A stretch of 64,000 bases of DNA from Solobacterium moorei. Its GTDB lineage: Bacteria; Bacillota_I; Bacilli_A; Erysipelotrichales; Erysipelotrichaceae. The stretch is from NCBI RefSeq assembly GCF_036323475.1, contig NZ_AP028934.1, positions 1,054,001 through 1,118,000 of the forward strand. The letters run 5' to 3'. Below are positions 17,348-38,096 of the stretch, piece after piece; position 1 is the first letter of the stretch; each line of letters opens with the position of its first letter. Below the pieces are notes generated by a model. The model made no database searches and was not told the DNA's origin. It saw only the letters and a list, made by a program, of their open reading frames with translations. Made by a program: the position numbers and the translations under genes.

Positions 17348-17580
17348 TATTGCATTCGACAGCGGCATCAGTGATGGATGTCGTTTTTAATATGGATTTT
17401 GTGGATTGTATCAATCAATTTTATCTGTTAAATTACAAGATATTTTTAGAATATATTTGTGAAATATTATTTCAATAATATATCTCAAAAACAGCCCAAA
17501 ATAGTCAAAAAAGTTTCAAATTACCAAAATTGCGATAAGTTAGTTAACATTAACTAACATCAATTGACCAAAAAATATAA
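17348..17580. repeat. Long direct repeat (233 bp) left of IS1634-A
   Basis: The segment from TATTGCATTCGACAGCGG to CCAAAAAATATAA is repeated at 19484-19715 with one T fewer. It abuts the ends of an IS1634-type element on both sides. IS1634 is known for target duplications of variable and very long size. The repeat carries the palindrome and -35 box of the downstream operon. The stretch 17155-17347 contains nothing I can identify. Confidence 0.88.
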
Positions 17581-17625
17581 CCTGACTTTAGAGTTAAACA
17601 TTAAAAAATGGTGTAAAACTACAGA

Positions 17626-18277
17626 TTAGAATCTATAGTTCAACACCTTTTTTAGTTTTGTTGGAGATAAAAAATAATTGTCTAAAGGTAATCCTGTCAT
17701 GTCTGATAATTCGGTAATGAAGTTGGTTCCTATGGATATGTTTGTATAACTGTCTTCTCCTTCAACGAACTGGAATGCTTTGTAGAATTCATTCAGCTCT
17801 GAAGAGGAATATTTGTTTTCCAAGACTTTAAATTGAAATATTCTCTGCAGCAGTACAGTAAGATAACATATTAAGAAATGTCCCTTGATCGTATTCTCAA
17901 GCTGTAAATAAACAGGTCTTGCATCTAGGTCTGATTTCATGATTCTGAATGATTCTTCTATCCTCCACAGGTTGTGGTATGTTTCATATATCTGTCTGGC
18001 ATCCACCTTTGTTTCAGATGTGACAAGCATATTGTAACCGGCCAGTTTCAAGTCATTATCTATCGTTTCCTGATTGATGATGGCCTTTACTTTATCTTCT
18101 GCTTCTTCTCCGTTTGAAGTAGATCTGAAAGTGACATATTTTGCGCTTTCCCCATATTCATTTTTCTTTACAAGTGATACGGACAGACCTTTGGCTTTTT
18201 CTACAAGCTTGTTTATTTCATATTTGTGTTTTCTTGCCAGTGTCGGATTGTATGTGACGACTCTTTTTTCTTTGATG
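17626..18277 (-). CDS. IS1634 transposase, second frame (C-terminal part)
   Basis: This frame continues the transposase after a -1 shift at AAAAAAG (18288-18282 on the minus strand). It reads VNIKEKRVVTYNPTLARKH and on to LWRIEESFRIMKSDLDARP, which holds the catalytic Glu. Its first ATG is only at 18051, deep inside the domain, so independent translation would not give a working enzyme. The related element at 33896-35685 has the same regions in one frame. Confidence 0.7.
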
Positions 18278-18278
18278 T

Positions 18279-19397
18279 TTACTTTTTTCTTTTTCCGCTT
18301 TCATCTGTATATGTGTATGGAAATTCATCGATACATTCTTTACAGTAATAAATGATCTTGCCATTTCTGTCCTTGATTGCTTTGTAGTCATTAGGTAGTA
18401 GAACCCATACCTTTTCTGTTTCAGGCAGCTGCTTGACTGATTTGGAAAAGAGATATCCATCGCCGTTTGCCAAAGCTGAAAGTATATTCTCTGAACAGTT
18501 CAGTCCCTTGTCAGCTACCCGTATCGTTTTTCCGTGTACTTCATGTCTTTCCTTCAAGTCTTTCAGTACATCTTTCAATACAGGCTTTTCTGATTCATTT
18601 CCAGGATACAGCTTCATACCAACAGGAATTTGATTCGCATCCAGCAGTAAGCCCAGCCCAATGACAGGAGCTTTCCTGTTTTCTTTGCTTGGACCCTTTC
18701 TTCTGAAGTCATCTTCTCTGTCAATTTCAAAATAGAAGTTTGTACAGTCAAAATAGGTGATAGCAGTATCTATGGAATATTTGTCTTGGACTCTCGAAGT
18801 GAACAGTTCAACAATTTTCTCATAGTCATTTCCATAAAATGCCAGGGCACTCAATAGTTGATCGTAGTTGAATGCATAAGGAATATGAAGCTGAGGAAGG
18901 ATTTCATAATATGTTTTGTATTTACTGCAGGGAGAAACACAACGAGCATATACAAGAAGAGAAAGAACTTCATAAAGTTCAAATTCAAAATCGGTAGTGA
19001 ATTTATACAGATCAATAAACTTCTTGATATCAAGATCTTCAAGAATGGATTTCAAAGGGAAATAGCCAAGATATCTTCTTGGAGAAACGGAAGTAATTTT
19101 CTTGATCTTATCTTGCTTGTTATCCAGATTCATTTTTTCTACTTCATCTTTGTAGAAAGCAACAGGATCATCAATACCGGCAGCTTTCAGTTTAGAAACA
19201 GAACCAAGAGACCTGATACAACGATGTTTGGTACCTTTGGTAGCAGGAGAATAAAAAGATTCATAAACAGCGAGATACGTATTGTTTTGTTGTTTAGCAA
19301 CCTTAAGGAAATAAGCCATAAAACACCCTCCTACATAATACACCATTACACCATTAAAAGGAATAGATAAAAATGAATTTGTCAAGTTTTTGAACAA
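18279..19397 (-). CDS. IS1634 transposase, first frame (N-terminal part)
   Basis: A 372-aa product with the first two catalytic acids, YFDCTNFYFE and VADKGLNCSEN, but without the Glu. It ends at TAA 18281-18279 directly after the string AGA-AAA-AAG. A shift of -1 on A-AAA-AAG would continue into the C-terminal frame and give a protein of about 590 aa, close to the 574 aa of element IS1634-B. Whether this is programmed or a recent frameshift cannot be decided from one copy. A start nearer to 19320 (MAYFLKVAKQQNN) is more likely, since it follows GGAGGGTG. Confidence 0.72.
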   Translation of the reverse strand: MFKNLTNSFLSIPFNGVMVYYVGGCFMAYFLKVAKQQNNTYLAVYESFYSPATKGTKHRCIRSLGSVSKLKAAGIDDPVAFYKDEVEKMNLDNKQDKIKKITSVSPRRYLGYFPLKSILEDLDIKKFIDLYKFTTDFEFELYEVLSLLVYARCVSPCSKYKTYYEILPQLHIPYAFNYDQLLSALAFYGNDYEKIVELFTSRVQDKYSIDTAITYFDCTNFYFEIDREDDFRRKGPSKENRKAPVIGLGLLLDANQIPVGMKLYPGNESEKPVLKDVLKDLKERHEVHGKTIRVADKGLNCSENILSALANGDGYLFSKSVKQLPETEKVWVLLPNDYKAIKDRNGKIIYYCKECIDEFPYTYTDESGKRKK

Positions 19398-19483
19398 TAA
19401 GAAAAGCCCATCAATACTGGACTTGAATTACTTTATTAAAAATGTGCTCCTAAAGATTAATGGTGCTAACTTCTAAACACGGG

Positions 19484-19715
19484 TATTGCATTCGACAGCG
19501 GCATCAGTGATGGATGTCGTTTTTAATATGGATTTTGTGGATTGTATCAATCAATTTTATCTGTTAAATTACAAGATATTTTAGAATATATTTGTGAAAT
19601 ATTATTTCAATAATATATCTCAAAAACAGCCCAAAATAGTCAAAAAAGTTTCAAATTACCAAAATTGCGATAAGTTAGTTAACATTAACTAACATCAATT
19701 GACCAAAAAATATAA
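19484..19715. repeat. Long direct repeat, right copy, carrying the operon operator
   Basis: This is the second copy of the 233-bp repeat. It is the one that remains joined to the cargo operon. It ends within the operon's promoter spacer, so the full promoter is rebuilt on this side only. Confidence 0.88.
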
Positions 19716-19754: not shown

Positions 19755-22700
19755 ATGACGGGGGAAAAGTCATGGAAGAAATATGGTATCATTGGCGGTC
19801 TGATCATACTGATCGCTGCGGTGTTCTTTTATCATTTATTTTTAAATACACCAAAGCCATCGGCAGAGTCATCAAGTGATAAGAAGAATTATGCAACAAT
19901 TACAATTAAAGACGGGGCAGGTGCAGCGGATACAAATCATGGTGTAAACGGCTTGCATGTATATGATCCACGCTCGAAAGATTTGGAAGATTTCGGCGAC
20001 GGGGCAGAAGTGGAACTTGGTACAAAATTATCTATTTTTGCATATAACCGGGCAAGTGAAGTTCATCTGAAGATTACGCATAATGGTAAAGTGATTGCGG
20101 ATAAAGATTATCCGATTCTGCAGTCAGACAATGATGTAGAGTTTTTTGAGTTTATTGTTGAAGGCGATGTTGATGTTGAAACATGGGTAGTCAATTCAAA
20201 AGCAAAAGATGGTATTTCCACGGTTCATATCAATAATGACAGTTTAGCAAAAACAGAAATTGGTCAAAGTGAAATCAAGGATAAGACCGATATATACTTC
20301 GGTATCCATGATTTTGCAATCACTGCTAATAAAAAAGATATTAAGGCAACGATCAAAGTCGGCACGAAAGAAATTGAGACTGCTGTCATTTCGGCTAATC
20401 AAAAACATGTTTTTGAAAAAGTGGAAGTAAAAGACGATGTGTTTATCAGTTTTACGTATGCAAATAAAGCGGATCGTGAAGCCGCAGAATTGAATAAAAA
20501 AACAAATCAAACAAACGGTGATTTATCAATGACGGGTACCGGGAACCCGACGATTACAATATCCAATTCAGTAGGACGCAGTGACGTGCAGTTAGATATT
20601 CGTTATATTGATTCCAATCTGAATGTTTATGACGTTATATCCGGTAGAGAATATCCGAAGGGAATGATGGTATTCAGCCGTGTTATTAACAGTTCTCCAC
20701 TCACATTGCGCTTGTCCGCGATTATGGATGGTACAACGATTAATTCGGTCATCATCAAACCGAAACCGGCAAATGATGATGCGACATATTTTGGTATTCC
20801 TGAGATTGCATTGAATGGGAATTTGACCTATGTATTGGAGGTTGCGGGCAATGAGCCGACACCGACACCAAATCCATCTGATCAAGGCAATGTACAGCCT
20901 GAAAATCCGGTAAATCCAAGCAACCCAACCAATCCATCTAATCCAACGCAACCGGAAACAGAGAAGAAATATCGGATTACAATTAACGATGGGGCAAGTG
21001 AAGCGGATACAAATTACGCGGTCAACGGCTTACATGTATATCCAACCGGCTTACCGGATGATCCTGAATATACAGATGGACAATATGTAGCGGCAGGTAC
21101 AAAGGTTACAATTTTTGAATATAATCTTGCGTCGGATGTACACTTGACGATCACCAAGAATGGCGAAGTGATCACAGATCGAGATTTACCAAAACGTATT
21201 CCGGGTGTTGATCATGATGCGTCTGTCGAGTTCCATCATATAGTATTGGATGGCGATTTAACGGTAACGACAAGTGTTGGTCTAAAGGGTGATACACCAA
21301 AGAATTATAAAGTTCGTGTAGATCATCCAGAACTTGCTAAAGTCATGGTTGATGGCAAGGAAGCGGAACAAGTACAAGCCGGCGTACATACATTTAGTGT
21401 TATGGCACTGAATAAGCCGATCTTTGCAACGCTGAAGATGGGTGATCAAACGATTCAGACGATACAGGTGGAAAAGAATACAACGGTGAATTTTGAAAAA
21501 GTTCAAGTAAAGGGTGATATTTCGATTCAAATCAGTGATGAAGCCATCGGTCAAAAGAACCATACTGTAACGATTATAAATCCATATACAGATGTGATCG
21601 TTAACCCTGTATGGGTTGAAAATATGACGATACCGCATCAAATTGTAAATGGCGGTAAGTATACGGATGGCACAATGGTGCATACGCAATTTATCAATCG
21701 CTCAAATCGTCGTATGAAGTTAAGTGCGAAATATGGTGACACGGTGATTGCTTCTGTGACCTTAAACGCAAAACCGGCACACGATGATGGCTCTTATGGC
21801 GGTTTAAATCCATTTGCACTAACGAACGACTTAACATATGTTGTTGAAGAAGTCGGCGAAGCGCAGTATAACGTTAGTTTGACCGGTAATCGGGCAAATC
21901 TAATCAATGTATATGACGGTACAACACCGATCAAAGATGGTGCTGTAATCAAGGAAGGAACACATACGTTCTATGCATACAACGGAAGTGGTGATGCTGC
22001 ACTGGATAACACACAGGTATCCATCTTTGTAAATGGCAAACAGATCGGTGATACAAAGACGGTTGGTTCCGCCTCTGCTCCGGCTGCTTGGGAGGGTGTT
22101 GATGTAAAAGGAAATGTTGTCATTTGCATCACAAATCCGCTGGAAACCAAGAAAGCCAAAGTGAAGATTGTAAATGGCGCAAGCGCGGCAGATACAGCAA
22201 CGGCGGTAAATGCGATCCATATATATAATCCTGATGATGCCCCTGATTATCCGGATTACAAAGATGGCGATGAAATAGAAGTTGGCTCAAAACTGAGTAT
22301 CTATGCATATAACCTTGCTTCACCAATTCACCTGAAAGTTGTACATAATGGAACGGTCATTGTGGATAAAGATTACGATGAATTTGTACCGTATGTCAGC
22401 AAAGAAGACTTTATCGATATTCCACAGGTACAGGGCGATGTAGAAGTATATACATCACTTATTAAAAAACCCGAACAGACTTTCCCGGTCAAAATGACGG
22501 GGAAATATCGTGGGGACGTATATGTTTTCGATGAGGATCTGAATCCGGTACAAGACGCAACCATTACGGCGGGCCTTCATAACTTTGATGTTCGTGATGA
22601 ATTTGACTTCGTGCCGAATAATGCAGTTGTAACGCTGTATGTAGGCGGTAAGAAGATTGGTGAAAAAACATTGGATAAGGATAGAGTTGTATTTGAAAAT

Positions 22701-23351
22701 GTTACGGTTGACGGGGAGGTGACAATTGATGTCAGCAAACCTGCCGTCACGCCGCCGACGCCGCAGACAAAACATGTAATTACAATTGACAACAAGGATT
22801 CTGATATTGATGCACAAATGGATGTCGGTTACATTAACAAGGAAAATCAACCGGTACAGATTTCTTCCGGTGATCAAATTGAAGATGGCACACTTGTAAC
22901 CGCTCGCGTCATCAACAAGTCTGATAAGAAACTAAAGATGACAGTTAAATCCGGTGATGCGGTATTGGAAGTGGTTGAAATTCCGGCAAAACCTGCCAAT
23001 GATGAAGCCGGCTTTGGCGGTTTCTTGCCACATGAGTTAAAACAGGATATGACATTTATCTTGGAAGTCGCTGAAGAAACACCGCCGGCACAAGAATATA
23101 CAGTACACATTGTAAACCCTGATCTTGCATATGAAGTTTACAGTGATGGGAAACTCATGAATGATGGTGCGAAGGTATTGGCGGGCAAGCATAACTTCAT
23201 GGTATATAGCCAAGATGAAGAAATCACCGTAACAGTAAAAGTAAACGGCAAAGTTATTGCGACCAAGGATATTGATGGTGTGTATAATTCATGTAAATTT
23301 GAAGATGTTTTTGTAGATGGAGAAGTAACCATTGAAGCACAATTAAAATAA
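19755..23351 (+). CDS. Membrane-anchored surface protein with tandem beta domains (1198 aa)
   Basis: A Lys-rich N-terminus and one membrane helix (about residues 10-30, YGIIGGLIILIAAVFFYHLF) are followed by an extracellular array. Three repeat types can be told apart. Type A (DGA.aADTn.avNgLHVY) occurs three times, near 45, 405 and 790. Type B (ending KPANDd..yGg...L...LTYVLEV) occurs three times, near 258, 590 and 985. Type C, looser (DG..v.aG.H.F...v.vkGdv.I), occurs about five times. The order is A-C-B, Pro/Asn linker (about 366-398), A-C-B-C-A-C-B-C. There is no LPXTG. ATG 19755 follows TGGAGG. Its place as first gene of an importer operon suggests a ligand-capturing surface protein; I do not recognise the family. 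Confidence 0.8.
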   Translation: MTGEKSWKKYGIIGGLIILIAAVFFYHLFLNTPKPSAESSSDKKNYATITIKDGAGAADTNHGVNGLHVYDPRSKDLEDFGDGAEVELGTKLSIFAYNRASEVHLKITHNGKVIADKDYPILQSDNDVEFFEFIVEGDVDVETWVVNSKAKDGISTVHINNDSLAKTEIGQSEIKDKTDIYFGIHDFAITANKKDIKATIKVGTKEIETAVISANQKHVFEKVEVKDDVFISFTYANKADREAAELNKKTNQTNGDLSMTGTGNPTITISNSVGRSDVQLDIRYIDSNLNVYDVISGREYPKGMMVFSRVINSSPLTLRLSAIMDGTTINSVIIKPKPANDDATYFGIPEIALNGNLTYVLEVAGNEPTPTPNPSDQGNVQPENPVNPSNPTNPSNPTQPETEKKYRITINDGASEADTNYAVNGLHVYPTGLPDDPEYTDGQYVAAGTKVTIFEYNLASDVHLTITKNGEVITDRDLPKRIPGVDHDASVEFHHIVLDGDLTVTTSVGLKGDTPKNYKVRVDHPELAKVMVDGKEAEQVQAGVHTFSVMALNKPIFATLKMGDQTIQTIQVEKNTTVNFEKVQVKGDISIQISDEAIGQKNHTVTIINPYTDVIVNPVWVENMTIPHQIVNGGKYTDGTMVHTQFINRSNRRMKLSAKYGDTVIASVTLNAKPAHDDGSYGGLNPFALTNDLTYVVEEVGEAQYNVSLTGNRANLINVYDGTTPIKDGAVIKEGTHTFYAYNGSGDAALDNTQVSIFVNGKQIGDTKTVGSASAPAAWEGVDVKGNVVICITNPLETKKAKVKIVNGASAADTATAVNAIHIYNPDDAPDYPDYKDGDEIEVGSKLSIYAYNLASPIHLKVVHNGTVIVDKDYDEFVPYVSKEDFIDIPQVQGDVEVYTSLIKKPEQTFPVKMTGKYRGDVYVFDEDLNPVQDATITAGLHNFDVRDEFDFVPNNAVVTLYVGGKKIGEKTLDKDRVVFENVTVDGEVTIDVSKPAVTPPTPQTKHVITIDNKDSDIDAQMDVGYINKENQPVQISSGDQIEDGTLVTARVINKSDKKLKMTVKSGDAVLEVVEIPAKPANDEAGFGGFLPHELKQDMTFILEVAEETPPAQEYTVHIVNPDLAYEVYSDGKLMNDGAKVLAGKHNFMVYSQDEEITVTVKVNGKVIATKDIDGVYNSCKFEDVFVDGEVTIEAQLK

Positions 23352-23357
23352 AGTGAA

Positions 23358-23387
23358 AAATACACCTTCTAAAAGGAAGGTGTATTT
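23358..23387 (+). terminator. Intercistronic hairpin after the surface-protein gene
   Basis: AAATACACCTTC pairs with GAAGGTGTATTT over 12 bp with a short loop, and TTTC follows. The U-run is weak, so partial termination or mRNA end protection is more likely than a full stop. It would let the surface protein outnumber the transporter. Confidence 0.5.
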
Positions 23388-23402
23388 CATGAAAGGGGAA
23401 CT

Positions 23403-24431
23403 ATGAAAAAACTATTACGTGCCTGTATCTTAATTGTTTTAAGTCTTTCTATTGCGGGGTGTTCAACCGGCAAATCAAGCGGTAAGCAGGAAACATCGGC
23501 ACAAGAAACAAAGCAAAATGTAAATCTGGATATTTCAGAAATTCGGATGCCAAAGTTGGAAGATACACGAAGTGAAGAAAAGAAAGAAAATACAATTACA
23601 ACATTGAATGGGGATAAAGTCACATACAATATGAATACGAGGAAGATTGTATGTGTCTTTGGCTCACAAGATGTAGTTGCCTTTGGTATTCCGCTTTTGG
23701 CATATGAAGGAACAAGTGATATTACGGGTTATGAAGAATATTATGACGGGGCGAGTGCCTTGGTAAACAATACACCGTTTTCATCAGAAGAAATTCTATC
23801 GTATGAACCGGAATTGATTTTGGTGAATCAGAGAATGTCAAGTGCAAATATCAGAGCGCTCAGTAAGATTGCACCTGTTATTCCGTTATATACGGATTCA
23901 ATCGATTTTGCGACAAGATTAAACTATATCGGTGAAATCTTCGGTCTGCAGGAAAGTGCACAAAAGTTAATTGATTATGCGGATAATTTAAAAAACGCAA
24001 TGTTATCTGAAATGAAAAAATTAAACTTATCTGATAAGACATTGACATTATTTACCTATATGGGCAGTATCACCATTCCGCCTGAAAGAGGCTGGTTTAT
24101 GAATACGATCCTTTATGATTATTTAGGCATGAAGCGTTTAGAGAAAGTAAAGGAATTTATGGAAGATGAAAGTGGCATTGCATATGAAGCAATTTCTACT
24201 GAAAAATTGAAGGAATATGAAGGCGATCTTGTCATCTATGCCGGTTTTGGTGAAAGTACGATATCCACATATGTCAGTGAAAACGTAGGCTGGCAATCTC
24301 TCAATGCGGTGATAGAAAACCGCGTGGGAATCATTGATATTACGCCATATGCACAAAAAGGAGTTATTTTACTTGAAAAGCAATATATGCAGATATATGA
24401 GGCTCTGAAGGCCGCTTCTAAGGGTGTTTAA
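23403..24431 (+). CDS. Iron/siderophore-type ABC importer, substrate-binding lipoprotein
   Basis: A 342-aa lipoprotein with lipobox SIAGC (Cys about residue 20) and a charged linker. A FecB/BtuF-type binding fold follows: residues around KIVCVFGSQDVVAFGIPLLAYEG, SSEEILSYEPELILV and IGEIFGLQESAQKLIDYADNL match the family pattern. It should deliver ligand to the FecCD permeases encoded next. The family carries siderophores, haem or cobalamin and the sequence does not say which. It lies 51 bp after the surface protein and overlaps nothing. Confidence 0.85.
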   Translation: MKKLLRACILIVLSLSIAGCSTGKSSGKQETSAQETKQNVNLDISEIRMPKLEDTRSEEKKENTITTLNGDKVTYNMNTRKIVCVFGSQDVVAFGIPLLAYEGTSDITGYEEYYDGASALVNNTPFSSEEILSYEPELILVNQRMSSANIRALSKIAPVIPLYTDSIDFATRLNYIGEIFGLQESAQKLIDYADNLKNAMLSEMKKLNLSDKTLTLFTYMGSITIPPERGWFMNTILYDYLGMKRLEKVKEFMEDESGIAYEAISTEKLKEYEGDLVIYAGFGESTISTYVSENVGWQSLNAVIENRVGIIDITPYAQKGVILLEKQYMQIYEALKAASKGV

Positions 24432-24444
24432 GAAAGGAGTATGC

Positions 24445-25452
24445 ATGCATAATCGATTAAAGTTTTGGGTTTATCTTATGAGTGGGATCGGTATATTGTT
24501 TACACTCATGATAGTTACGTTATCCTTTGGCGCAACAAGGATTACTTTACCTGAGATTATGCATGCGTTCTTTTCGTTTGATCAGAAAAACTTTGTTGAA
24601 GTGACAGTCAGAAATATTCGCTTACCGCGGTGGATTGCGGATGTCATTGTCGGTGCTTCACTTTCGGTTGCCGGAGCAATCATGCAGGGAACGACTAAAA
24701 ATCCGATGGCTGATTCCGGTATTATGGGGATATCATCCGGTTCTACACTGGGCGTTGTCATTGTACTTGCCTTCTTTCCAAGTGCGGGACGTATGGAGAA
24801 AATGATGATTTCAGCAATCGGTGCTGCGCTTGTCACAATTTTAATCTATATCATTGCATATGTTGGCAAAGGAAGAATCACGTCAGAGCGCATGGTATTA
24901 TCCGGCATGACAATTTCAACGTTGCTGTCTTCTCTCACTACCGCAGTCATTTTGAAGAACGGTTTAATGAACCAGATGATTCGCTACACCAGTGGCAGTT
25001 CTGCCAATACGATCTGGAAAGATATTGCAATTGCATTGCCTCTTTTTTTACTTGCACTTATGGTAGCGATTGCAATTTCACGTTCGTTAACGGTGATGAA
25101 CTTGGGAGAAGAAGTATCTGTCGGATTAGGCGCAAATACAGTATTGATTCGCTTACTGTCAACCATTGTTGTTTTGGTATTATCCGCCATTGCGGTGATT
25201 GTCATTGGACCGGTAGGATATGTCGGTCTGATGATACCGTATATTGCACGGTATATGGTGGGTACGGATTTCCGTTTGATTTTGCCGATTTGTGCTGTTT
25301 ATGGGGCAATATTTGTAAGTTTTGTGGATTTTGTGGCAAAGACGATTCATCCGGGCTTAGAATTTCCGATTGGACTTTTGATTACAATGATAGGTGTTCC
25401 TTTCTTCATATACGTTTCAAGAAAACAGGAAGGAGACGGATACAATGGATAA
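24445..25452 (+). CDS. FecCD-family ABC importer permease 1
   Basis: A 335-aa integral membrane protein of FecCD/BtuC type with about nine or ten helices. It contains the family hallmarks IRLPRWIADVIVGASLSVAGAIMQGTTKNPMADSGIMGISSGS and GPVGYVGLMIPYIAR near the ATPase-coupling region. GAAAGGAG precedes ATG 24445. It overlaps the second permease's start by 8 bp, which indicates coupling. It differs in sequence from permease 2, so the pore is a heterodimer. Confidence 0.9.
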   Translation: MHNRLKFWVYLMSGIGILFTLMIVTLSFGATRITLPEIMHAFFSFDQKNFVEVTVRNIRLPRWIADVIVGASLSVAGAIMQGTTKNPMADSGIMGISSGSTLGVVIVLAFFPSAGRMEKMMISAIGAALVTILIYIIAYVGKGRITSERMVLSGMTISTLLSSLTTAVILKNGLMNQMIRYTSGSSANTIWKDIAIALPLFLLALMVAIAISRSLTVMNLGEEVSVGLGANTVLIRLLSTIVVLVLSAIAVIVIGPVGYVGLMIPYIARYMVGTDFRLILPICAVYGAIFVSFVDFVAKTIHPGLEFPIGLLITMIGVPFFIYVSRKQEGDGYNG

Positions 25453-26464
25453 AGTCCCGGCGGATATTCTGCAATCTCGAAAACGAATCATGTATATTGT
25501 CGCAATGGCAAGCGTGTTGATCGGTGTTTTCATCATCGGTTGTTGTATGGGACCGTATGCCATCCGCCTGCCGGATGTGTTACGTACGCTTATCGGACAA
25601 GGTGACAGTAAGATGAACCTGGTCATCTTTGACTTTCGTTTACCGCGATTATGTCTTGCGGTTTTAGTCGGCATCGGAATGGGTACAAGCGGCGTCATGA
25701 TGCAGAACTTATTGCATAATGACTTAGCGTCACCGGGGACTCTGGGGATAGCCGACGGTTCTTCCTTATTTGTGACACTATATGTTGCTTTAATTGCCAA
25801 AAGAATTGACGAACCGATATTATTGCCTATATTGGCACTGGTCGGCGGACTGATTTCGGCGTTGATTATTTATCGTTTGGCAATCAAAAAAAATAAACCG
25901 ATTCCACCGGTAAAATTGATTATGACCGGTGTTGCGATGGGCGCCGCATACGCAGCCATTACGACTTTTATGATGTATGCCTTGGATGAAAGCCAACTTG
26001 AGTTTGTTCAACGTTGGCAATCCGGCGAGTTGTGGGGGACTGAATGGAAATACATATTGATTTTATTTGTCTGGCTGTTTGTATTTATGATTTTAGCAAT
26101 GCGCCATGCACATACATTGAATGCAATCTACTTGGGCTATGATATTGCGACAGCACTTGGCATCAACATCAAAGTTTTATTTACATATTTGATTTTTATT
26201 GCAGTAGCGATGTCATCCGGAGCAGTTGCCTTTGGCGGAAATTTCTTCTTTTTAGGATTGATCGGGCCACACATTGCACGACGTATTGTCGGCACAGATG
26301 CACGCTATTTGATTCCGGCAGCCAGTATTTGTTCCGCACTGATTATTGTTTCGGCAAATATTTTAGTTGAAAATATTGAACTGTTCATCAATATTCCGAC
26401 CGGTATATTTGTATCCGTTATTTCAGTACCGTATTTCCTGTATTTATTGATAAAGATGAGGTGA
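25445..26464 (+). CDS. FecCD-family ABC importer permease 2
   Basis: A 339-aa membrane protein of FecCD type, with FRLPRLCLAVLVGIGMGTSGVMMQN, LASPGTLGIADGSSL and FLGLIGPHIARRIVGTDARYL. GGAAGGAG lies upstream of ATG 25445, inside the end of permease 1. It overlaps neither the ATPase's chosen start nor its ribosome site by more than a few bases. Confidence 0.9.
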   Translation: MDKVPADILQSRKRIMYIVAMASVLIGVFIIGCCMGPYAIRLPDVLRTLIGQGDSKMNLVIFDFRLPRLCLAVLVGIGMGTSGVMMQNLLHNDLASPGTLGIADGSSLFVTLYVALIAKRIDEPILLPILALVGGLISALIIYRLAIKKNKPIPPVKLIMTGVAMGAAYAAITTFMMYALDESQLEFVQRWQSGELWGTEWKYILILFVWLFVFMILAMRHAHTLNAIYLGYDIATALGINIKVLFTYLIFIAVAMSSGAVAFGGNFFFLGLIGPHIARRIVGTDARYLIPAASICSALIIVSANILVENIELFINIPTGIFVSVISVPYFLYLLIKMR

Positions 26465-26469
26465 GAAAG

Positions 26470-27270
26470 ATGGCAATTGCAATACAGACAAAACAACTTC
26501 GCGTCGGTTATGACCAAATGATCATTGTCCCTCACTTTGATGCGTGTTTTGAAAAAGGAAAAATCACCTCCATTATCGGTGCAAACGGTTGTGGAAAATC
26601 AACCATACTCAAAGCAATCGGACGGGTCATCCCTAAGACAAATGGTGCAATTATCATCAATGATACGGATATTGCTCATTTAAAATCAACCGAAATTGCT
26701 CAAAAAATGGCAATCCTTCCGCAAACGCCCCATGCTCCGGGTACATTAACTTGTTTTGAACTGGTATCTTATGGACGCTACCCGTATCAGAAAGGGTTTG
26801 GCATTTTAAGTAAGGAAGACAGACAAATTGTTGATTGGGCTTTAGAAGTAACAAATATGCAGGAATTCAGAAACCGTGAAATTGCATATCTTTCCGGCGG
26901 TCAGCGACAACGAGTCTGGATCGCGATGGCATTGGCACAACAGACAGGCATTATTCTACTGGATGAGCCGACGACATATTTGGATTTATGCCATCAATTA
27001 GAAGTTTTGGAACTTTTGAAAAAACTGAATGAAGAACAAAATACAACCGTCATTATGGTTCTGCATGATTTAAATTTGGCATCACGATACTCTGATTATT
27101 TATTGGCGATGCATGATGGTGAAATATATCGTTATGGCAAACCGGAAGAAGTGTTAACGTCTGATATGTTGGCAAAGTGCTTTGCGATTGATGGGGATAT
27201 TCAGAAGGATAAAAAAACGCAAAAACCGGTTTGTGTCAGTTACGATTTATTGAGGAAACAAAATGTATAA
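26470..27270 (+). CDS. FecE-type ABC importer ATPase
   Basis: A 266-aa ATP-binding subunit: Walker A GANGCGKST (about residues 36-44), the Q-loop region MAILPQTPHAPGTLT, signature LSGGQRQR, Walker B IILLDEPT and the H-loop in VLHDLN. This fits the FecE/FhuC group that serves FecCD permeases. GAGGTGAG precedes ATG 26470. The next small reading frame starts 8 bp before its stop. Confidence 0.92.
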   Translation: MAIAIQTKQLRVGYDQMIIVPHFDACFEKGKITSIIGANGCGKSTILKAIGRVIPKTNGAIIINDTDIAHLKSTEIAQKMAILPQTPHAPGTLTCFELVSYGRYPYQKGFGILSKEDRQIVDWALEVTNMQEFRNREIAYLSGGQRQRVWIAMALAQQTGIILLDEPTTYLDLCHQLEVLELLKKLNEEQNTTVIMVLHDLNLASRYSDYLLAMHDGEIYRYGKPEEVLTSDMLAKCFAIDGDIQKDKKTQKPVCVSYDLLRKQNV

Positions 27271-27442
27271 ACGGTTGGTATTGTGTGTATGCATATTGGC
27301 AGAGTGTATAAAACAAATATCAAAAATATCAGCCGTTACCGATGTACAAATCAAAGAAACTGATAAAAATGTACTTTATTTTTCTTCAAGAACCTTTCAA
27401 CAGAAAAGATTACAAACATATGTATTTATGGAAAGTGAGTGA
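27263..27442 (+). CDS. Small 59-aa peptide of unknown function
   Basis: ATG 27263 lies inside the end of the ATPase gene, after TTGAGGAAAC, and the stop TGA 27440-27442 overlaps the next ATG by one base. Both junctions are typical of translationally coupled genes. The peptide has a hydrophobic N-terminus (LVLCVCILAEC), possibly a signal or membrane segment, and a polar remainder. It may instead be a translational bridge or the remnant of a longer gene. No family recognised. Confidence 0.5.
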   Translation: MYKRLVLCVCILAECIKQISKISAVTDVQIKETDKNVLYFSSRTFQQKRLQTYVFMESE

Positions 27443-28788
27443 TGATGAAAAGAATATATTTAGGAATATTACTGATCTGTATGATACTTTCCGGTTGCGG
27501 TGAAAGAAAGCCATCTGGCAAGTTGACAAATGATACACTGCTAACGATACAAGATTTTCCGACAGAAGATTTACCAAAACCGAATGATACGATTGCAAGT
27601 TTAGATGATTTTATTAGAGTGTTGGATTATATGGCGTTTTATCGTATTGGAGATAAAGTCTATTTTCAAATTGATGATGTATATGCCGAGAAATTTGTCA
27701 ATCCATATACAGAATTTCAAAAGGCATATCAGCAATCTGATTTGGCAGATGTATATGCATGCATACTTGATGATGATCGCTATACAAAGGAACACATCAT
27801 TGGGATTAAGTACTCAATGAGTAAAGATATTGCAAGTCAAACATCATCGGAAAATCCGCAGATTCCGATTCTTCACTCGTTTGATGATATACAGGGAAAT
27901 AAAAATGATGAACCTATCCCGCTGGAACGATCTCATAAACAGGAAATAGAGTGCGAGAATAGTGAACAGTTATATTTTCTGGTGATGAACGGGTATCGTC
28001 CCAAGCCACGAAAAGGCAGTGTGGCAGAGCGTATCTATCAACTAGCAAAAGATGTTATTCATCAGCGAATCGTTACAACGATGAGCGACTTTGAAAAGAT
28101 AAAAGCAATTTATGATTATTTGACAGGAGAAATTCGCTATGACTATGCGACTGCATATTCACGGGATACATATTTGGTAAAAGAACAGGCATATTATCTT
28201 GAAGGTGTGTTTTTAAATCGGCTTGCAGTATGTGATGGCAAAGCAAAGGCATATGCACTTTTACTCAATATGATCAATATTCCGTGTGTTCGTGAAACGG
28301 GAACAAATGACAATTCAGGAGATCATGCTTGGAATATGGTACGGCTGGACGGGAAATGGTATGTATCGTGTACGACATATGGACAGAGTAATTTAAAAGA
28401 TTCGATTGGGCGTATTGTGCCTAACTATGCAATGTTATTGACAAGTAAGGATACTTCTTTCCATACCAAATGGGGATACATGACGCAGAAGCATTTGGAA
28501 ATATATGAAAAACTGGAAACAGAAGGATATGATGTTTATCAACAGATGTCTAAAAATGTAAATATCAACCTTCAAATTGCAAGTATTGACGAACTGATTG
28601 ATTTGATAAAGAAGGTAGGTTATACGCCGGAAACAAAAGTGGAGTTTCAATATGTCGGTGATCAACCGGAGAATTTTCAAAAAGAGATGGTTGATTATTT
28701 GAAAACGGTTGATAATACCAATGTGATACAAATTCATACAGAAGGAGAAATAGTATATTCAATACTATATGTGAATCAAGATGAGTAA
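27442..28788 (+). CDS. Transglutaminase-like lipoprotein
   Basis: A 448-aa lipoprotein with lipobox ILSGC (Cys 19), about 180 residues of unassigned sequence and a transglutaminase-like domain from about residue 200. The nucleophile region is LAVCDGKAKAYALLL (Cys 264) and the His region GDHAWNMV (His 295). The position where the family normally has the third catalytic residue reads WYVSCTTYG, without the usual Asp, so activity may be reduced or altered. It follows the ABC genes in the same operon and overlaps the Sel1 gene by 8 bp. Confidence 0.75.
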   Translation: MMKRIYLGILLICMILSGCGERKPSGKLTNDTLLTIQDFPTEDLPKPNDTIASLDDFIRVLDYMAFYRIGDKVYFQIDDVYAEKFVNPYTEFQKAYQQSDLADVYACILDDDRYTKEHIIGIKYSMSKDIASQTSSENPQIPILHSFDDIQGNKNDEPIPLERSHKQEIECENSEQLYFLVMNGYRPKPRKGSVAERIYQLAKDVIHQRIVTTMSDFEKIKAIYDYLTGEIRYDYATAYSRDTYLVKEQAYYLEGVFLNRLAVCDGKAKAYALLLNMINIPCVRETGTNDNSGDHAWNMVRLDGKWYVSCTTYGQSNLKDSIGRIVPNYAMLLTSKDTSFHTKWGYMTQKHLEIYEKLETEGYDVYQQMSKNVNINLQIASIDELIDLIKKVGYTPETKVEFQYVGDQPENFQKEMVDYLKTVDNTNVIQIHTEGEIVYSILYVNQDE

Positions 28789-29431
28789 TAATCGGTGGAA
28801 TGAAATCGCAACAGAATATCTGCGGAATAAAAACTATGCAAATGTTTTGTTATATTATCAGAAAGCGGCTGAAGAAGGAGATTATCTGGCAATGTATAAC
28901 ATTGCATGCATGTACTACTTTGGAGATGGTGTAGAGAAAAATGATACATTGGCATTTGAATGGTATAAAAAGGCTGCGCAGCATCAGGATCCGGAAGCAG
29001 CGAATCGAGTTGGTGTGATGTTGGAAAACGGAATCGGATGTAGTGCTGATGCGGAACAGGCATACCGATATTATGTACAGTCTGCTGATCTTGGCTCACT
29101 TTCCGGAATGGCAAATCTCAGTTTATGCATGTTAGAAGGAAAAGGGTGCGAAAAAGACATTCCAAAAGGACTTCTTTGGATGGATAAGGCATCTGTGAAA
29201 GGTAATGGAATTGCCTCAACGCTGATGGGAGATTACTATCAGGAAGGTAAATATGTGGTGCAGGATTACTTGCAGGCTGCAACATATTATGAAAGAGGTA
29301 TGCAGCAAAAATATGCACCGGCAATTTTCAAGTTGGCAAAGATGTATGAATATGGATATGGTATAACAAAAGATTTGCATAAGAGTAAAGAATTAGAGCA
29401 ATTGGCAAAAGATACACCGGACGAAGATTAA
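28781..29431 (+). CDS. Sel1-repeat (TPR-like) protein
   Basis: A 216-aa protein composed of about five Sel1-like repeats: YLAMYNIACMYYFGDGVEKND, PEAANRVGVMLENGIGCSADA, LSGMANLSLCMLEGKGCEKD and two more. There is no signal peptide, so it is likely cytoplasmic. Such proteins scaffold partners. It is the last gene of the cargo operon, translationally coupled to the transglutaminase-like gene. No clear terminator follows. Confidence 0.82.
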   Translation: MSNNRWNEIATEYLRNKNYANVLLYYQKAAEEGDYLAMYNIACMYYFGDGVEKNDTLAFEWYKKAAQHQDPEAANRVGVMLENGIGCSADAEQAYRYYVQSADLGSLSGMANLSLCMLEGKGCEKDIPKGLLWMDKASVKGNGIASTLMGDYYQEGKYVVQDYLQAATYYERGMQQKYAPAIFKLAKMYEYGYGITKDLHKSKELEQLAKDTPDED

Positions 29432-30208: not shown

Positions 30209-31633
30209 CTATTTCATATAATTTTCTTTTCTCTTTTTTGGAATGATGGGGTTCAGGCTTGGTACAGATGATTTTCGTAGTACATATAGGCAACGATTGC
30301 GGAATCTGTCCCAATTGGTGTAACCATTCGAAGACTTCTTGATCGTCTTGAGTATAGAATTACGATTCTCCATTAATCCGTTATTTAATTTTCGTTCGGA
30401 TACTACCACTTGGCCTGTATCCTTATCGACTTTATGAGTCTTCTTTACGATGATGAAGGAGTTGATGATTTCATATTGCCAATTACGCAATGTTCCAGAG
30501 AAATCTATCATTTCCTCGATGTCACTAGAAGCGAAGGCACGGATCAGTTCCTTGAGTGCCTCTGGTGCGGTCTCGTAGGTGTTATTGTCATAGAAGTCCA
30601 CTAAATCATCCTTCAGTTGCCATGCGGCCTTTAAATCGGGATGAATGTCTAATATAAGTTGTTGTATGTCGTAGAAATTTAGATAGCGGTTCAGCTTTCG
30701 GTTCATCTTCTTCTCATTGTTTGAATCGAACAGTAGCCGTCCTTTCTTGTCGGTAGAGTCCGGTCTTTTGAAGATCAACCAGTTGAACTTTTTTAATAGA
30801 TAGTATTCATCCGTTTGGATGTTGGAGTCAGGCAATGTCTTTTTAACATCTTTCATGATGCGTATCCGGACACCATCTACCTTACGAGAAAGCTCCTGAC
30901 TGACGTGGTAGTGGTCTACAGAGTGAAGAGCCTTTGGAAAGATAGAACGTATGATGGCACGATACTCCGCATACATGTCGGTGGCTATCATCAGTACCTT
31001 CTTTCTTTCCTCGATCGGTATGTTCAAGAAATAACTACGTAGGTACTCTTTCTTTCTGCTCGGAAGAATGTCACATGGCTCTTGTGAGATGAAATCCAGA
31101 ATGGTAAATACATATTTGGAGTTCAGGTCAATGTGATGAAAAGCATAGGCCTCATCCCAACACATCAACTCAGGCAGTATTCTTCTGCTTTCTTGAACAT
31201 GTGTATCAAATATAGAGGCAGCCGAAGTGGCAGAGATATGATATCTTTGGGCGACCGTAGAAAAGGTCTCCGTGTGTGATTTCAGATCCCTGAGGACATT
31301 GTGAACGGTAAGTGCAGATATCTTCTGGGATTTGAAACAGAATGGGTTGTCTTCGTAATAGGTACGTTGGCATACAGGACATCGATATCTTCTGGCCCTG
31401 TAATGTAGGATACAACTGCGGTCTGAGAGAAGAGAGTGCTTTATCTTCTTGAGCAGATATCCTTTAATGACGACCTTTGTATTTCCACAATCAGGACAGG
31501 CTGGGTAATCGGGACGCAGTAAAACATCGACAATGGCTGAGCCAAAGTCATTATGGAATTGGATGTCTTCGATCTTTGATGAATCAAGATTAAAGAGTTC
31601 TAAAATGGCATATTGGTCAAATGATAGTGACAT
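30209..31633 (-). CDS. ISL3 family transposase (element A)
   Basis: A 474-aa transposase with the N-terminal zinc ribbon (CPDCGNTKVVIKGY...CPVCQRTYYEDNPF, about residues 45-100), an HTH and the DDE region with CWDEAYAFHHID, KALHSVDHYHVSQEL and the C-terminal ENRNSILKTIKK. ATG 31633 follows GGAGGAAG. Length and motifs are intact. Confidence 0.9.
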   Translation of the reverse strand: MSLSFDQYAILELFNLDSSKIEDIQFHNDFGSAIVDVLLRPDYPACPDCGNTKVVIKGYLLKKIKHSLLSDRSCILHYRARRYRCPVCQRTYYEDNPFCFKSQKISALTVHNVLRDLKSHTETFSTVAQRYHISATSAASIFDTHVQESRRILPELMCWDEAYAFHHIDLNSKYVFTILDFISQEPCDILPSRKKEYLRSYFLNIPIEERKKVLMIATDMYAEYRAIIRSIFPKALHSVDHYHVSQELSRKVDGVRIRIMKDVKKTLPDSNIQTDEYYLLKKFNWLIFKRPDSTDKKGRLLFDSNNEKKMNRKLNRYLNFYDIQQLILDIHPDLKAAWQLKDDLVDFYDNNTYETAPEALKELIRAFASSDIEEMIDFSGTLRNWQYEIINSFIIVKKTHKVDKDTGQVVVSERKLNNGLMENRNSILKTIKKSSNGYTNWDRFRNRCLYVLRKSSVPSLNPIIPKKRKENYMK

Positions 31634-31659
31634 AGAGCTTCCTCCTAGGGCAATCATAG

Positions 31660-32046
31660 CTACCCATCAGAGAAGTGGAAAGGCAAAGTCATCTGTATTA
31701 AAGAAGAAAAATGATGACGGTGTGGCAGATGCCAATAGAGCAGTGATGTCTCTAGGTCAAACAGAGATGACAACTTGGTTTTCCAACGGACGATGGTCGA
31801 ATCACAAGGAAGATCAAACAAGTCGATATCCGGATCATTGTGAATGGCCTTCATGATGGTTTCTATCGTATAGTGCTTGTAAGGAAGAAGGAAATTCGGA
31901 AGAGTTCTATGGTACTTGTGGTATGAATCGATATAGACAGGTATCCAGATATAAAAAATATCTGTGCCTGATTTAACGATTCTACGAGCAGTACCTGCAA
32001 GCTCCATTGTATGAAGGGTGTCATCGATAGGGACATCACTGCTCAC
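31660..32046 (-). CDS. ISL3-associated protein (DUF6431-like), probably degenerate
   Basis: Small genes of this kind are often found directly upstream of ISL3 transposases. The stretch HRTLPNFLLPYKHYTIETIMKAI followed by an HTH-like STIVRWKTKL fits the remembered DUF6431 pattern. The zinc-ligand cysteines expected just before HRTLP are not seen (the text reads PVYIDSYHKYHRTLP), and the protein is short at 128 aa. It may be non-functional. The assignment is from memory. Confidence 0.45.
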   Translation of the reverse strand: MSSDVPIDDTLHTMELAGTARRIVKSGTDIFYIWIPVYIDSYHKYHRTLPNFLLPYKHYTIETIMKAIHNDPDIDLFDLPCDSTIVRWKTKLSSLFDLETSLLYWHLPHRHHFSSLIQMTLPFHFSDG

Positions 32047-32318
32047 AACTAGAAATCCGATATATGTTTAGGGTGTTTTATGAAATGATAATGTGATAAG
32101 ATAAGCATGGTTAATTACTGGGAGAGATTTGGAAAATGTGGCTGAATCTCTCTTTCTTTCTATAAGAACATTATAAGAAAAAACAAAGGGGAAGGCATCT
32201 CAATAGAGGTCTTCCCCAAAGTGTTTTATAGGGTATAAAGAAGAAACTACAAATTACACCACAAACTTCTTTAAAGGCTATGGCTTAGCCCAACTAATTT
32301 TGCATAGTCATTTTATAA

Positions 32319-32361
32319 AAGACAATTCCAAAGAGTGATTCTCTACGGGATTGTCTTTTTG
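32319..32361. terminator. Bidirectional terminator hairpin at the end of ISL3-B
   Basis: AAAGACAATTCC and GGGATTGTCTTT pair around a short loop and are followed by TTTTG on the plus strand and by A/T-rich sequence on the minus. It follows the ISL3-B transposase gene (minus). The rest of 32047-32384 holds another hairpin (GGGGAAG...CTTCCCC near 32190-32217) and no gene. Confidence 0.55.
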
Positions 32362-32384
32362 TCTGGAGGGTAACAATATATTTA

Positions 32385-33695
32385 TTATTTTTTCTGTTTA
32401 CGATTGTATGCTTGAATGTTTGATGTCAATGAGAAGCCAATCCTGTAGTTTAGTGCATAAATTACACGTGCTCTGAATCTTTCGAAATTACTGAGACCAT
32501 TTGATATCATAATAAATTCTCGCATCTTTTGATTAAGGCTCTCAGCGAGTGCATTAGACTGTTTTCTATCTTCTGTTGGTCTTTGAAATGAATTGCATAT
32601 TTCTTCAAACCAATTTTCCAATAGATTAATGAACTCGCTATAACATACTAGTCTAGATTCTTTAAAATACCTAATTAAATCTGTGAGTTCTTCAATACAT
32701 TCTGGATAAGTAGAATTTCTATTAAAATATCTATAATCTTCCTTTAACCCATAGGCCTTTTTGAGTATCGGGTTGAGATTGAGAAGTGCGTCATATAGAT
32801 CTCGATAGTTCATCTTCTGACGAAAGAAATGATTATATTTAGGTTCGTTATCCAGAAAGCAATCTGTTTCCAAGAGGTGGTGAAAGTGCTTGAGCAGATA
32901 GTAAGCAGGACTTTCTTTAGGAACCTGGTTCATTAAAGATACACGTAATGTAGTAAAACCATCAGAAAGATGTTTGACTACATGGAAAGGATCGACGGAT
33001 ATCTTACAGTTTGGAAAGTATTTGAGAGAGACTTGTTTATAAGGTTCCCACATATCTATGGTTACATATAAGACACGTTTTCTTTCTTCTAGAGGTATCT
33101 TCTCGAGATGTGCTGATAATGTTCGTTTTGAACGATCGGGTAATAATTCATTAAGAACGCGAGCATCATTATCTACAAAAGAACATAGATATGAACCACC
33201 ATATTTGGCCATATTAGAATGAAGCTCATCAATTCCTAGATTGATCGGTAGAGTTAACCTTGGGACTTGAATGAAACTGTCGGCATATAGTTGGACAGTA
33301 GTAACCGAGGTATTATACCTTTCGGCAATATCTTTATAGGATAGATGTAGATTTTGAAAGTCAGCAGCAATCTTATACAGTACAGCATAGGTTTGATGGA
33401 AATATTCAGGCCCAAAAGGATTTTCTTCACAAAATGTTTTAAAACAATCCTTACAAGTATAACGTCTACGCTTCCAATGAATAGAAGAAGGTGTATCACC
33501 TAAAGGAAGGTGATTATAAGTTCTATGAATATAACCCTTAGAGACTGTAGGGCCACCACAGTAAGGACAGGTTGGGTGTTGGTTTACCAGTGTGATATAT
33601 ACAAAAAGACGGTCTTCCTTACGTATCGCATCGATTTCTTGAATTGAATCTGATGTTAGATTTAAGGTTGACGTGATAAAATCATGAATAGCCAT
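32385..33695 (-). CDS. ISL3 family transposase (element B)
   Basis: A 436-aa transposase: zinc ribbon CPYCGGPTVSKGYIHR...CKDCFKTFCEENPFG (about residues 43-95), HTH (LSYKDIAERYNTSVTTVQ) and DDE residues in LGIDELHSN, ISVDPFHVVKHL and SNALAESLNQKMRE. GGAGG lies upstream of ATG 33695. It looks intact and is only distantly related to element A. Confidence 0.92.
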   Translation of the reverse strand: MAIHDFITSTLNLTSDSIQEIDAIRKEDRLFVYITLVNQHPTCPYCGGPTVSKGYIHRTYNHLPLGDTPSSIHWKRRRYTCKDCFKTFCEENPFGPEYFHQTYAVLYKIAADFQNLHLSYKDIAERYNTSVTTVQLYADSFIQVPRLTLPINLGIDELHSNMAKYGGSYLCSFVDNDARVLNELLPDRSKRTLSAHLEKIPLEERKRVLYVTIDMWEPYKQVSLKYFPNCKISVDPFHVVKHLSDGFTTLRVSLMNQVPKESPAYYLLKHFHHLLETDCFLDNEPKYNHFFRQKMNYRDLYDALLNLNPILKKAYGLKEDYRYFNRNSTYPECIEELTDLIRYFKESRLVCYSEFINLLENWFEEICNSFQRPTEDRKQSNALAESLNQKMREFIMISNGLSNFERFRARVIYALNYRIGFSLTSNIQAYNRKQKK

Positions 33696-33895
33696 ATAGG
33701 GCTACCTCCATTTCTATTTGATTCTCCAGACAAGAAGATAATAGCATGGAGGTTTTATTATATTTTGGTCTCCCCACAAAAAATGAGCACGATGATTTTT
33801 CGCGCCCACAAAAGTTTATAGCCTATCCCCAACCCCATGAGATTTTAAAGTGCCGATGTAGAAAGGGTTTCTGGCATTTTCGTTTTGTTGATCTG

Positions 33896-35685: not shown

Positions 35686-35782
35686 TAAAAATACATAAAT
35701 TTTGACAACAAAAAAAGATGGATATCCACCATCAATAAAGGGTTTATTCATTATCTTGTTAAATTACAACTGTAAAACTCCC

Positions 35783-35863
35783 GAGTCAATTCAACTAGAA
35801 TTTGGTGAACGACTAAATTCAACTTTCATACCTTAGAAGTGGAATTTAACTTTTCACTTGAGG
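35783..35863 (-). repeat. Remnant of an IS30-A right end
   Basis: About 81 bp match the right end of IS30-A (8599-8679), including the full inverted repeat ending CACTTGAGG, with a few substitutions. No transposase or left end is present. It lies directly left of the second IS30-B copy, so the rest of that element was deleted. The remainder of 35686-35874 holds a small hairpin (GATGG/CCATC) and nothing else. Confidence 0.82.
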
Positions 35864-35874
35864 TTTTTATTTAG

Positions 35875-37543: not shown

Positions 37544-37595
37544 TTGACAATGTTAGTTAGTGAGTCTAAACTAACATTGGTTAGAGTTCTCTAAC
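37544..37595 (+). promoter_or_regulatory. feo promoter with two palindromic operator sites
   Basis: TTGACA (37544-37549), a 17-bp spacer and TAAACT (37567-37572) form the promoter. ATGTTAGTTAG and CTAAACTAACAT (37550-37577) are near-perfect inverted arms covering the spacer and -10 box. GTTAGAGTTCTCTAAC (37580-37595) is a second palindrome at the likely start site. TTAGTTA-type palindromes suit DtxR/IdeR-like iron repressors. No full-length repressor gene is in the window. Confidence 0.65.
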
Positions 37596-37624
37596 TTTTG
37601 TTCATTTATGTAAGGAGGCAGACG

Positions 37625-37837
37625 ATGATGCCATTAGCTTTAGGAGTGATTGGTCAAGAATATAAGATTGTAAAAATCGGGGGAGGTGCGGAAGTAAAGC
37701 AACACTTAGCAGATCTCGGTTTTGTCGTTGGTGGCTCAGCTACAGTTGTCTCAGAAGTCGGTGGAAACCTAATTGTAAATGTGAAAGAAACACGCATTGC
37801 AATTGGGAAAGAAATGGCTATGAAAGTCATGATATAA
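37625..37837 (+). CDS. feoA: FeoA-domain protein 1
   Basis: A 70-aa SH3-like FeoA protein (YKIVKIGGGAEVKQHLADLGFVVGG), the cytoplasmic partner of the ferrous iron transporter FeoB. AAGGAGG lies 9 bases before ATG 37625. It is the first gene of the feo operon, and the next feoA starts 10 bp after its stop. Confidence 0.9.
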   Translation: MMPLALGVIGQEYKIVKIGGGAEVKQHLADLGFVVGGSATVVSEVGGNLIVNVKETRIAIGKEMAMKVMI

Positions 37838-37847
37838 GGAGGGAAGA

Positions 37848-38069: not shown

Positions 38070-38096
38070 TTCATAGAGGGATAAGGAGAAAGTAGA

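Follow-up and report, generated by a model that had tools for sequence, protein, structure and literature searches.

What is taken up by a system in which a large surface protein built of repeats is encoded directly ahead of a FecBCDE-type importer? The question is raised by an operon at positions 19755-29431 of the 64,000-nucleotide stretch of Solobacterium moorei DNA analysed here (the window; C1:1054001-1118000 of a host genome that consists of one 2.62-Mb contig). Its open reading frames (ORFs), all in the same direction, encode the surface protein, a substrate-binding lipoprotein (SBP), FecC, FecD and FecE, a short remnant, a transglutaminase-fold (TG) lipoprotein and a Sel1-repeat protein, and ORF calls bear out a complete one-direction operon and the gene coordinates given in an initial annotation of this DNA. 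We consider it moderately probable that iron controls this operon and that its products take up an iron chelate, bound first by an anchored receptor at the surface and then transferred to a siderophore-type lipoprotein and the FecCDE importer. The best reading of the whole is an Isd-like surface relay for ferric-siderophore-type chelates, constructed from a new repeat family.

Importer and substrate-binding protein

The importer genes, all on the plus strand, comprise a FecB-like substrate-binding lipoprotein (23403-24431; Peripla_BP_2, E 3.5e-13), a FecC-like permease (24445-25452; FecCD, E 3.4e-80), a FecD-like permease (25445-26464; FecCD, E 4.3e-78) and a FecE-like ATPase (26470-27270; ABC_tran), for which the best NCBIfam model was FecE with E 4e-87, below the cut-off of that model. 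Their order is kept in relatives. A Pfam search assigned the SBP, FecCD, ABC, Transglut_core and Sel1 families in the operon, in agreement with the initial annotation, and a FecBCDE transport function is expected from this family membership.

The nature of the ligand is best approached through the SBP. A profile of eight orthologues, compared with PDB sequences, ranked FeuA first (E 1.2e-17), and the best 16 matches were all named siderophore, ferric citrate or iron-uptake binding proteins; FhuD, FtsB, HtsA, FhuD2, SirA, YfmC and YfiY, with ferrichrome and hydroxamate binders, are among the matches after FeuA. Among these PDB matches a haem-binding protein appeared only at E 0.05 and no B12-binding protein was present, and a profile of three sequences gave the same ranking picture. 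NCBIfam additionally recorded a weak similarity to IsdE (E 1.3e-4), far below the cut-off. By sequence, the SBP is thus closer to siderophore SBPs than to those for haem or B12. Haem had been our first-choice ligand, and was dropped after the profile ranked the siderophore binders far above the haem binder; where the initial annotation had left haem, siderophores and other chelates open, a siderophore-type chelate is now favoured over haem, and its uptake would be the function of the system. The class of siderophore is a separate matter. The FeuA stretch IRIRQG, whose arginines we take to be catecholate ligands, aligns with I-Y/F-T-Y-M-G of the SBP orthologues, and since the arginines are replaced, a triscatecholate ligand is not specially supported.

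The surface protein and its repeats

The surface gene (19755-23351, plus strand) starts at 19755 behind a good ribosome-binding site and encodes a membrane-anchored protein of 1198 amino acids with an N-terminal hydrophobic anchor, which in the relative G021 terminates in a lipobox-like LVSC. About 11 beta repeats of three types had been annotated initially; on the basis of repeat profiles and alignments we count exactly 11 (3 A, 5 B, 3 C), arranged as A-B-C-A-B-C-B-A-B-C-B, with a number that differs between species. The A repeats occupy residues 49-142, 408-505 and 803-899 (19899-20180, 20976-21269 and 22161-22451), the B repeats residues 145-232, 513-592, 702-791, 921-992 and 1109-1194 (20187-20450, 21291-21530, 21858-22127, 22515-22730 and 23079-23336), and the C repeats residues 266-362, 604-698 and 1008-1104 (20550-20840, 21564-21848 and 22776-23066). 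The three types are mutually related, as the iterated profile of each also matches the others.

AlphaFold2 predicts immunoglobulin-like (Ig-like) beta sandwiches throughout, with a predicted local distance difference test score (pLDDT) of 83.5 for an A-B-C module and 96.7 for the A repeat alone (16 sequences). The structure prediction called for at the outset therefore yielded a fold class, while no convincing match to a solved fold emerged. Foldseek returned no match under 1e-3 for A-B-C or A alone, and one NEAT chain at E 0.69. The best VIA scores were Z 7.9 (C repeat with streptococcal pilins, 92 residues, 2.8 A) and Z 5.2 (A repeat with a designed Ig-like protein), both at a level common among unrelated beta sandwiches. 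In sequence comparisons, no Pfam or NCBIfam family exceeded its cut-off for the repeats, a PDB search with the whole protein found nothing at E 10, and the A-repeat profile gave only chance matches to PDB sequences. Pfam searches for a NEAT domain (PF05031) were negative both for the whole protein (E 1) and for individual repeats (16 A and 20 C, E 0.1), and a sortase signal (LPXTG or NPQTN) is absent from the protein, which ends in ...DGEVTIEAQLK; the annotated lack of NEAT and LPXTG signatures in the sequence thus holds. Assignment of the repeats to a known family with an unrelated function, which would have spoken against a receptor, was found in none of the Pfam, NCBIfam, PDB and fold searches. 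The best reading is that A, B and C constitute a new repeat family, with no convincing Pfam family or solved fold. A literature search, of partial coverage and hence weak evidence, found no description of such a system.

Conservation within the repeats suggests where a ligand may bind. In the alignment of 16 A repeats from five genomes, A7, A10, N17, H20, Y22, G41, G89 and D90 are invariant in 16/16 copies, and the asparagine, histidine and tyrosine lie in the motif VNxLHVY. In the C repeat only two glycines and one asparagine are invariant, which look more like structural positions. Set against these, the invariant polar residues of A mark it as the likely binding domain.

The same residues open the possibility of a haem relay, in which the A repeats bind haem without being NEAT domains and pass haem from dietary or host haemoproteins to the SBP, in the manner of Isd or Shr-Shp-Hts. 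A histidine and a tyrosine two residues apart, both often haem ligands, are invariant in 16/16 A repeats, the SBP has its weak IsdE similarity, Trep_Strep ECF importers belong to the same regulon (see below), and the layout of surface protein, lipoprotein and FecCDE resembles that of Isd and of Shr/Shp/HtsA (PMC2266757). We nevertheless regard haem as rather unlikely, given that the SBP profile favours siderophore binders by many orders of magnitude, that the surface protein lacks any NEAT match, and that no haem oxygenase was found in the operon or in the neighbouring genes examined.

Conservation of the system in relatives

Among 100 related genomes, the surface protein was found only in the host genome, G021 and G058, and a close SBP orthologue in the same three (3/100); the named relatives are rumen metagenome-assembled genomes (MAGs) labelled Solobacterium or Erysipelotrichaceae. 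A scan of genome contigs by SBP alignment added four loci, L081, L082, L083 and L084. The order surface-SBP-FecC-FecD-FecE-(TG2)-TG-Sel1, with TG2 denoting a second TG lipoprotein, recurs in G021, G058, L081 and L082. In G058 the surface and SBP genes are adjacent with a 26-nt gap, in G021 a contig break falls within the surface gene and the SBP comes next on the other contig, and in both the SBP is followed by FecC, FecD, FecE, TG2, TG and Sel1. Only TG2 is missing from the otherwise full order in L081, a sheep-rumen Solobacterium, and in the Clostridia-labelled L082; in L081 the surface gene runs 4 nt into the SBP gene. In L084, a Clostridia-labelled locus from roe deer rumen, two small lipoproteins with C-C-C and C-A repeats are encoded just ahead of SBP-FecCDE-Sel1. 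The L083 locus is cut at the SBP. Immediately after sel1, L081 and L082 encode a further secreted A/B/C protein, that of L081 bearing three C-terminal SLH domains. The neighbourhood survey hence finds the operon order in rumen Solobacterium relatives and, modified, in Clostridia-labelled MAGs. A lack of cotranscription of the surface gene with the importer in any genome, the other finding that the initial annotation had named as contrary to its proposal, has no support in the gene order: the gene lies directly upstream in every checkable relative except the more distant G566, which has no repeat protein.

The association extends to the repeats themselves. A profile of 16 A repeats matched in the host genome and in 5/6 related genomes, every match being at this locus, and found none at E 1e-6 in 394 other genomes of the class sample. 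Tblastn with the first 365 residues of the surface protein gave no match that would indicate spread by plasmids.

These distributions bear on whether the surface protein might hold the cell to rumen particles or mucus, as an adhesin or structural stalk, and merely share an iron-controlled promoter with an importer that acts alone. Ig-like repeats, the likeness of the C repeat to pilin folds (Z 7.9), the variation of repeat number between species and the presence in G566 of the importer without a repeat protein all fit such a role. It is countered by the occurrence of A repeats only with the importer in every genome examined, by L084, where the A repeat resides on a short lipoprotein that is an unlikely stalk and is still encoded just upstream of the SBP, and by A-repeat invariants that include polar residues, beyond core positions. 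We consider an adhesin improbable, and prefer a receptor that serves the importer.

G566 itself encodes SBP-FecCDE-TG2-TG without any A/B/C protein, which implies that the receptor is not obligatory, and G841 has FecE-TG2-TG. Behind the importer core, G566 encodes a different lipoprotein of 1179 amino acids (L109:1977-5516), in which FIVAR-like repeats are combined with unassigned beta modules and which may serve there as the receptor in place of an A/B/C protein; a gene start similar to that of this lipoprotein is found after TG in L122. The SLH-anchored A/B/C protein of L081 (L081:10356-13910) also carries two copies of an unrecognised domain of ~190 amino acids, starting YVLMNIPYDKFYxAEG...DVDAVSSATLNKPRTGTLAGGSYHV, with a weak FMN_bind match (E 0.03).

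Regulation

The iron-type palindrome that had been placed upstream of the operon is real. It lies at 19674-19693 (GTTAGTTAACATTAACTAAC) and is identified by pattern matches as a DtxR-type operator; the same box type stands before feoAAB, other metal genes and the orthologous operons. The host box has the N10 form (TTAG-N10-CTAA). Two TTAG-N6-CTAA boxes are located upstream of the operon in each of G058, G021, L081 and L082, and one box upstream of each second repeat-protein gene of L081 and L082, where shuffled upstream regions predict about 0.005 boxes per 250 bp.

Across the host genome we found 17 exact GTTAG-N6-CTAAC sites, with ~3 expected by chance if bases are independent at 37% G+C. 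Their contexts include feoAAB, an EfaA/AztC-like Mn/Fe/Zn-type ABC importer, Trep_Strep energy-coupling factor (ECF) importers and a Fur/PerR-like gene with rubrerythrin, and a related 18-bp form precedes DUF3793-flavodoxin; the names DUF3793 and PerR are sequence readings and the others profile matches. Relaxed patterns were uninformative, as the 18-bp palindrome at 3 mismatches was not enriched (28 matches vs 98 in the reversed control) and GTTAG-N6-CTAAC at 1 mismatch gave 58 vs 167, a count that is no evidence, so that the case for a regulon is made by exact or near-exact sites and gene contexts. Near the operon lies feoA-feoA-feoB itself (37625-40541, plus strand; FeoB_N, E 7.8e-65), 8 kb downstream, with two DtxR-type boxes at 37552-37600; feoB is also nearby in G021 and G058.

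Judged from these sites, the operator common to the operon, feoAAB and other metal genes is a feature of a DtxR-type iron regulon, and iron regulation of the operon is strongly suggested. One DtxR-family gene was found in the host genome, closest to MntR models and below their cut-offs, and we infer repression by this single DtxR/MntR-type protein when iron, possibly Mn, is plentiful. A manganese signal would suit an importer for another metal chelate or a corrinoid, and permeases of the FecCD/BtuC family also cover B12. Such a substrate appears very unlikely: the regulon includes feoAAB and a flavodoxin, the PDB matches of the SBP include no B12-binding protein, and an Rfam search of the window from 15 to 40 kb gave no match at all, neither a cobalamin riboswitch nor anything else. 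An iron chelate is retained as the preferred substrate.

Two groups of genes with such boxes deserve mention. The DUF3793-like gene and its flavodoxin (L074:2029-3025), immediately preceded by a DtxR-type box, form a probable iron-sparing flavodoxin operon. DtxR-type boxes also precede the ECF importer genes at L130:1651-3014, L137:1546-2850 and L072:4001-4501, with a Trep_Strep/MptD-type S component in L130 and L072 and a similar appearance in L137; these are candidate metal or haem importers of the same regulon.

Transglutaminase-fold lipoproteins and the Sel1 protein

The TG lipoprotein (27439-28788, plus strand; Transglut_core, E 4.2e-10) had been annotated as transglutaminase-like, which is accurate for the fold and not for the canonical catalytic site. 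Cys265 and His296 are present and Cys311 replaces the aspartate, so the Cys-His-Asp triad is incomplete. The replacement tracks the transporter: the cysteine (AVCDG) and histidine (HAW/HAY) of the triad are retained in the TG-fold proteins, and the aspartate of WYxVDxTW is changed to cysteine (WYxSCxTYG and variants) in 11/11 readable proteins from FecE-linked operons. The aspartate is present in 20 other TG-like proteins from the same genome sets (Fisher p 1e-8 for Cys vs Asp by transporter linkage, uncorrected for relatedness). Among these 20 are the closest homologues encoded elsewhere than in the operon (E about 1e-46 to 1e-61) and a protein from further downstream in L082 (14211-15727). 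Compared with MAG6410-type TG-related lipoproteins (NF045980) and Transglut_core proteins, the fold, the Cys and His of the triad and the lipoprotein signal are common, whereas the Asp to Cys change in 11/11 transporter-linked proteins and a score of 72 of the 450 bits of the NF045980 cut-off set the present protein apart. The loss of the aspartate makes classical transglutaminase or protease chemistry unlikely, and the transporter-linked proteins are probably not classical transglutaminases. As a guess, the Cys-His-Cys site might bind metal or cycle a disulfide.

A small peptide of 59 amino acids (27263-27442, plus strand), initially listed as a gene of the operon, is rejected as an independent gene and is instead a remnant of TG2 after internal deletion. 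Over 29 residues its C-terminal half matches the end of TG2 in G021 (48% identical, 29.6 bits; the best of 500 shuffles reached 25.4 bits), the same position being occupied by TG2 in G058. Peptide and relative's TG2 begin at the same place, right after fecE, and TG2 is intact in a relative. As the TG2-TG pair is kept in G566, where the repeat protein is missing, we assign the pair to the core importer and regard the repeat receptor as an added surface module. The last gene encodes a Sel1-repeat protein of 216 amino acids (28781-29431, plus strand; Sel1, E 5.5e-37, five repeats) with no signal peptide seen, probably a cytoplasmic scaffold.

Proposed uptake mechanism

We propose that iron scarcity would derepress the operon and feoAAB alike. 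The anchored repeat protein would then reach through the wall, its A repeats capturing a ferric chelate, most likely of siderophore type, via the invariant Asn/His/Tyr face, with the B and C repeats serving as spacers or weaker binders. The chelate may be passed from repeat to repeat, in some species after first capture by an outer SLH-anchored repeat protein that hands it inward, and would proceed to the lipoprotein SBP and on to FecCD/FecE. The TG-fold lipoproteins might use the Cys-His-Cys site to hold the chelate or its carrier, or to process either. In its full form, with new non-NEAT A/B/C receptors relaying the chelate across the wall by an Asn-His-Tyr face and Cys-His-Cys TG-fold lipoproteins binding or freeing metal at the membrane, this scheme is tentative and more doubtful than uptake of an iron chelate as such.

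Several observations weigh against the main reading of iron-chelate uptake through a surface receptor. The ligand is predicted indirectly, and haem or another chelate is possible because the SBP family is versatile. The system is rare, in 3/60 congeneric genomes, G566 has the SBP-FecCDE-TG2-TG core with no A/B/C protein, and no operator was present in the 250 bp tested at L084 and L109.

The closest functional parallel is Isd (the NEAT receptors IsdA/B/H/C with IsdE and IsdF, in staphylococci, with Bacillus/Listeria homologues), which likewise combines iron-regulated multi-domain surface receptors, a lipoprotein and a FecCD-type permease, its receptor repeats being Ig-like sandwiches as predicted here. 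Unlike Isd, the present system shows no NEAT sequence match and no LPXTG, and has an N-terminal membrane or lipid anchor, a siderophore-type SBP, a DtxR-type operator, and transglutaminase-like and Sel1 partners. Shr-Shp-HtsABC of Streptococcus pyogenes is similar in its large surface receptor, second receptor and FecCDE-type importer. Shr is built with NEAT domains, to which no sequence relation of the present repeats was detected. By analogy, the system would work like Isd and Shr-Shp-Hts and yet lacks the sequence features that define Isd and NEAT. FeuABC, FhuBCD-FhuD2, HtsABC and SirABC of Firmicutes share the SBP, permease and ATPase families and provide the best PDB matches of the SBP; to our knowledge they have no surface receptor before the SBP and no transglutaminase-fold or Sel1 genes.

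Gram-positive iron-chelate receptors beyond the membrane are known mainly for haem and mainly in pathogens (NEAT, Shr). If correct, a siderophore-type relay would mean that commensals of gut and rumen have solved the task differently, with a bearing on iron competition, and the Asp to Cys change that tracks the transporter would represent a testable new use of the transglutaminase fold. As the parts are small and probably soluble, with high-confidence predictions, the system is open to test at once.

Neighbouring features of the window

Between the surface and SBP genes lies a perfect 12-bp hairpin (23357-23388), which has no T-run on the plus strand and is hence not a standard terminator for the operon; it could possibly set differing amounts of receptor and importer mRNA. 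Between the operon and feoAAB the window contains a cluster of transposase genes (30209-37470; ISL3, DDE_Tnp_1 and HTH_38 types), and the same interval in G021 and G058 holds ordinary genes.

A second exact copy of the operator palindrome occurs at 17539-17558. It is explained by an IS1634-family insertion sequence (17581-19483, minus strand; transposase in two frames, 18279-19397 and 17626-18051, NF033559 E 4.6e-53 and 8.8e-29), which has duplicated 233 bp of the promoter region. The left copy of this direct repeat spans 17348-17580 and the right copy 19484-19715 (232/233 identical by BLASTN), the latter being the intact promoter and operator region that adjoins the operon. Family membership follows from the NF033559 transposase together with the long direct repeat; for IS1549/IS1634 the recorded range of such repeats is 8-514 bp (PMC2266710). 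Positions 17348-19715 thus present a clear case of the long, variable target duplication of this family, in which promoter and operator have been doubled.

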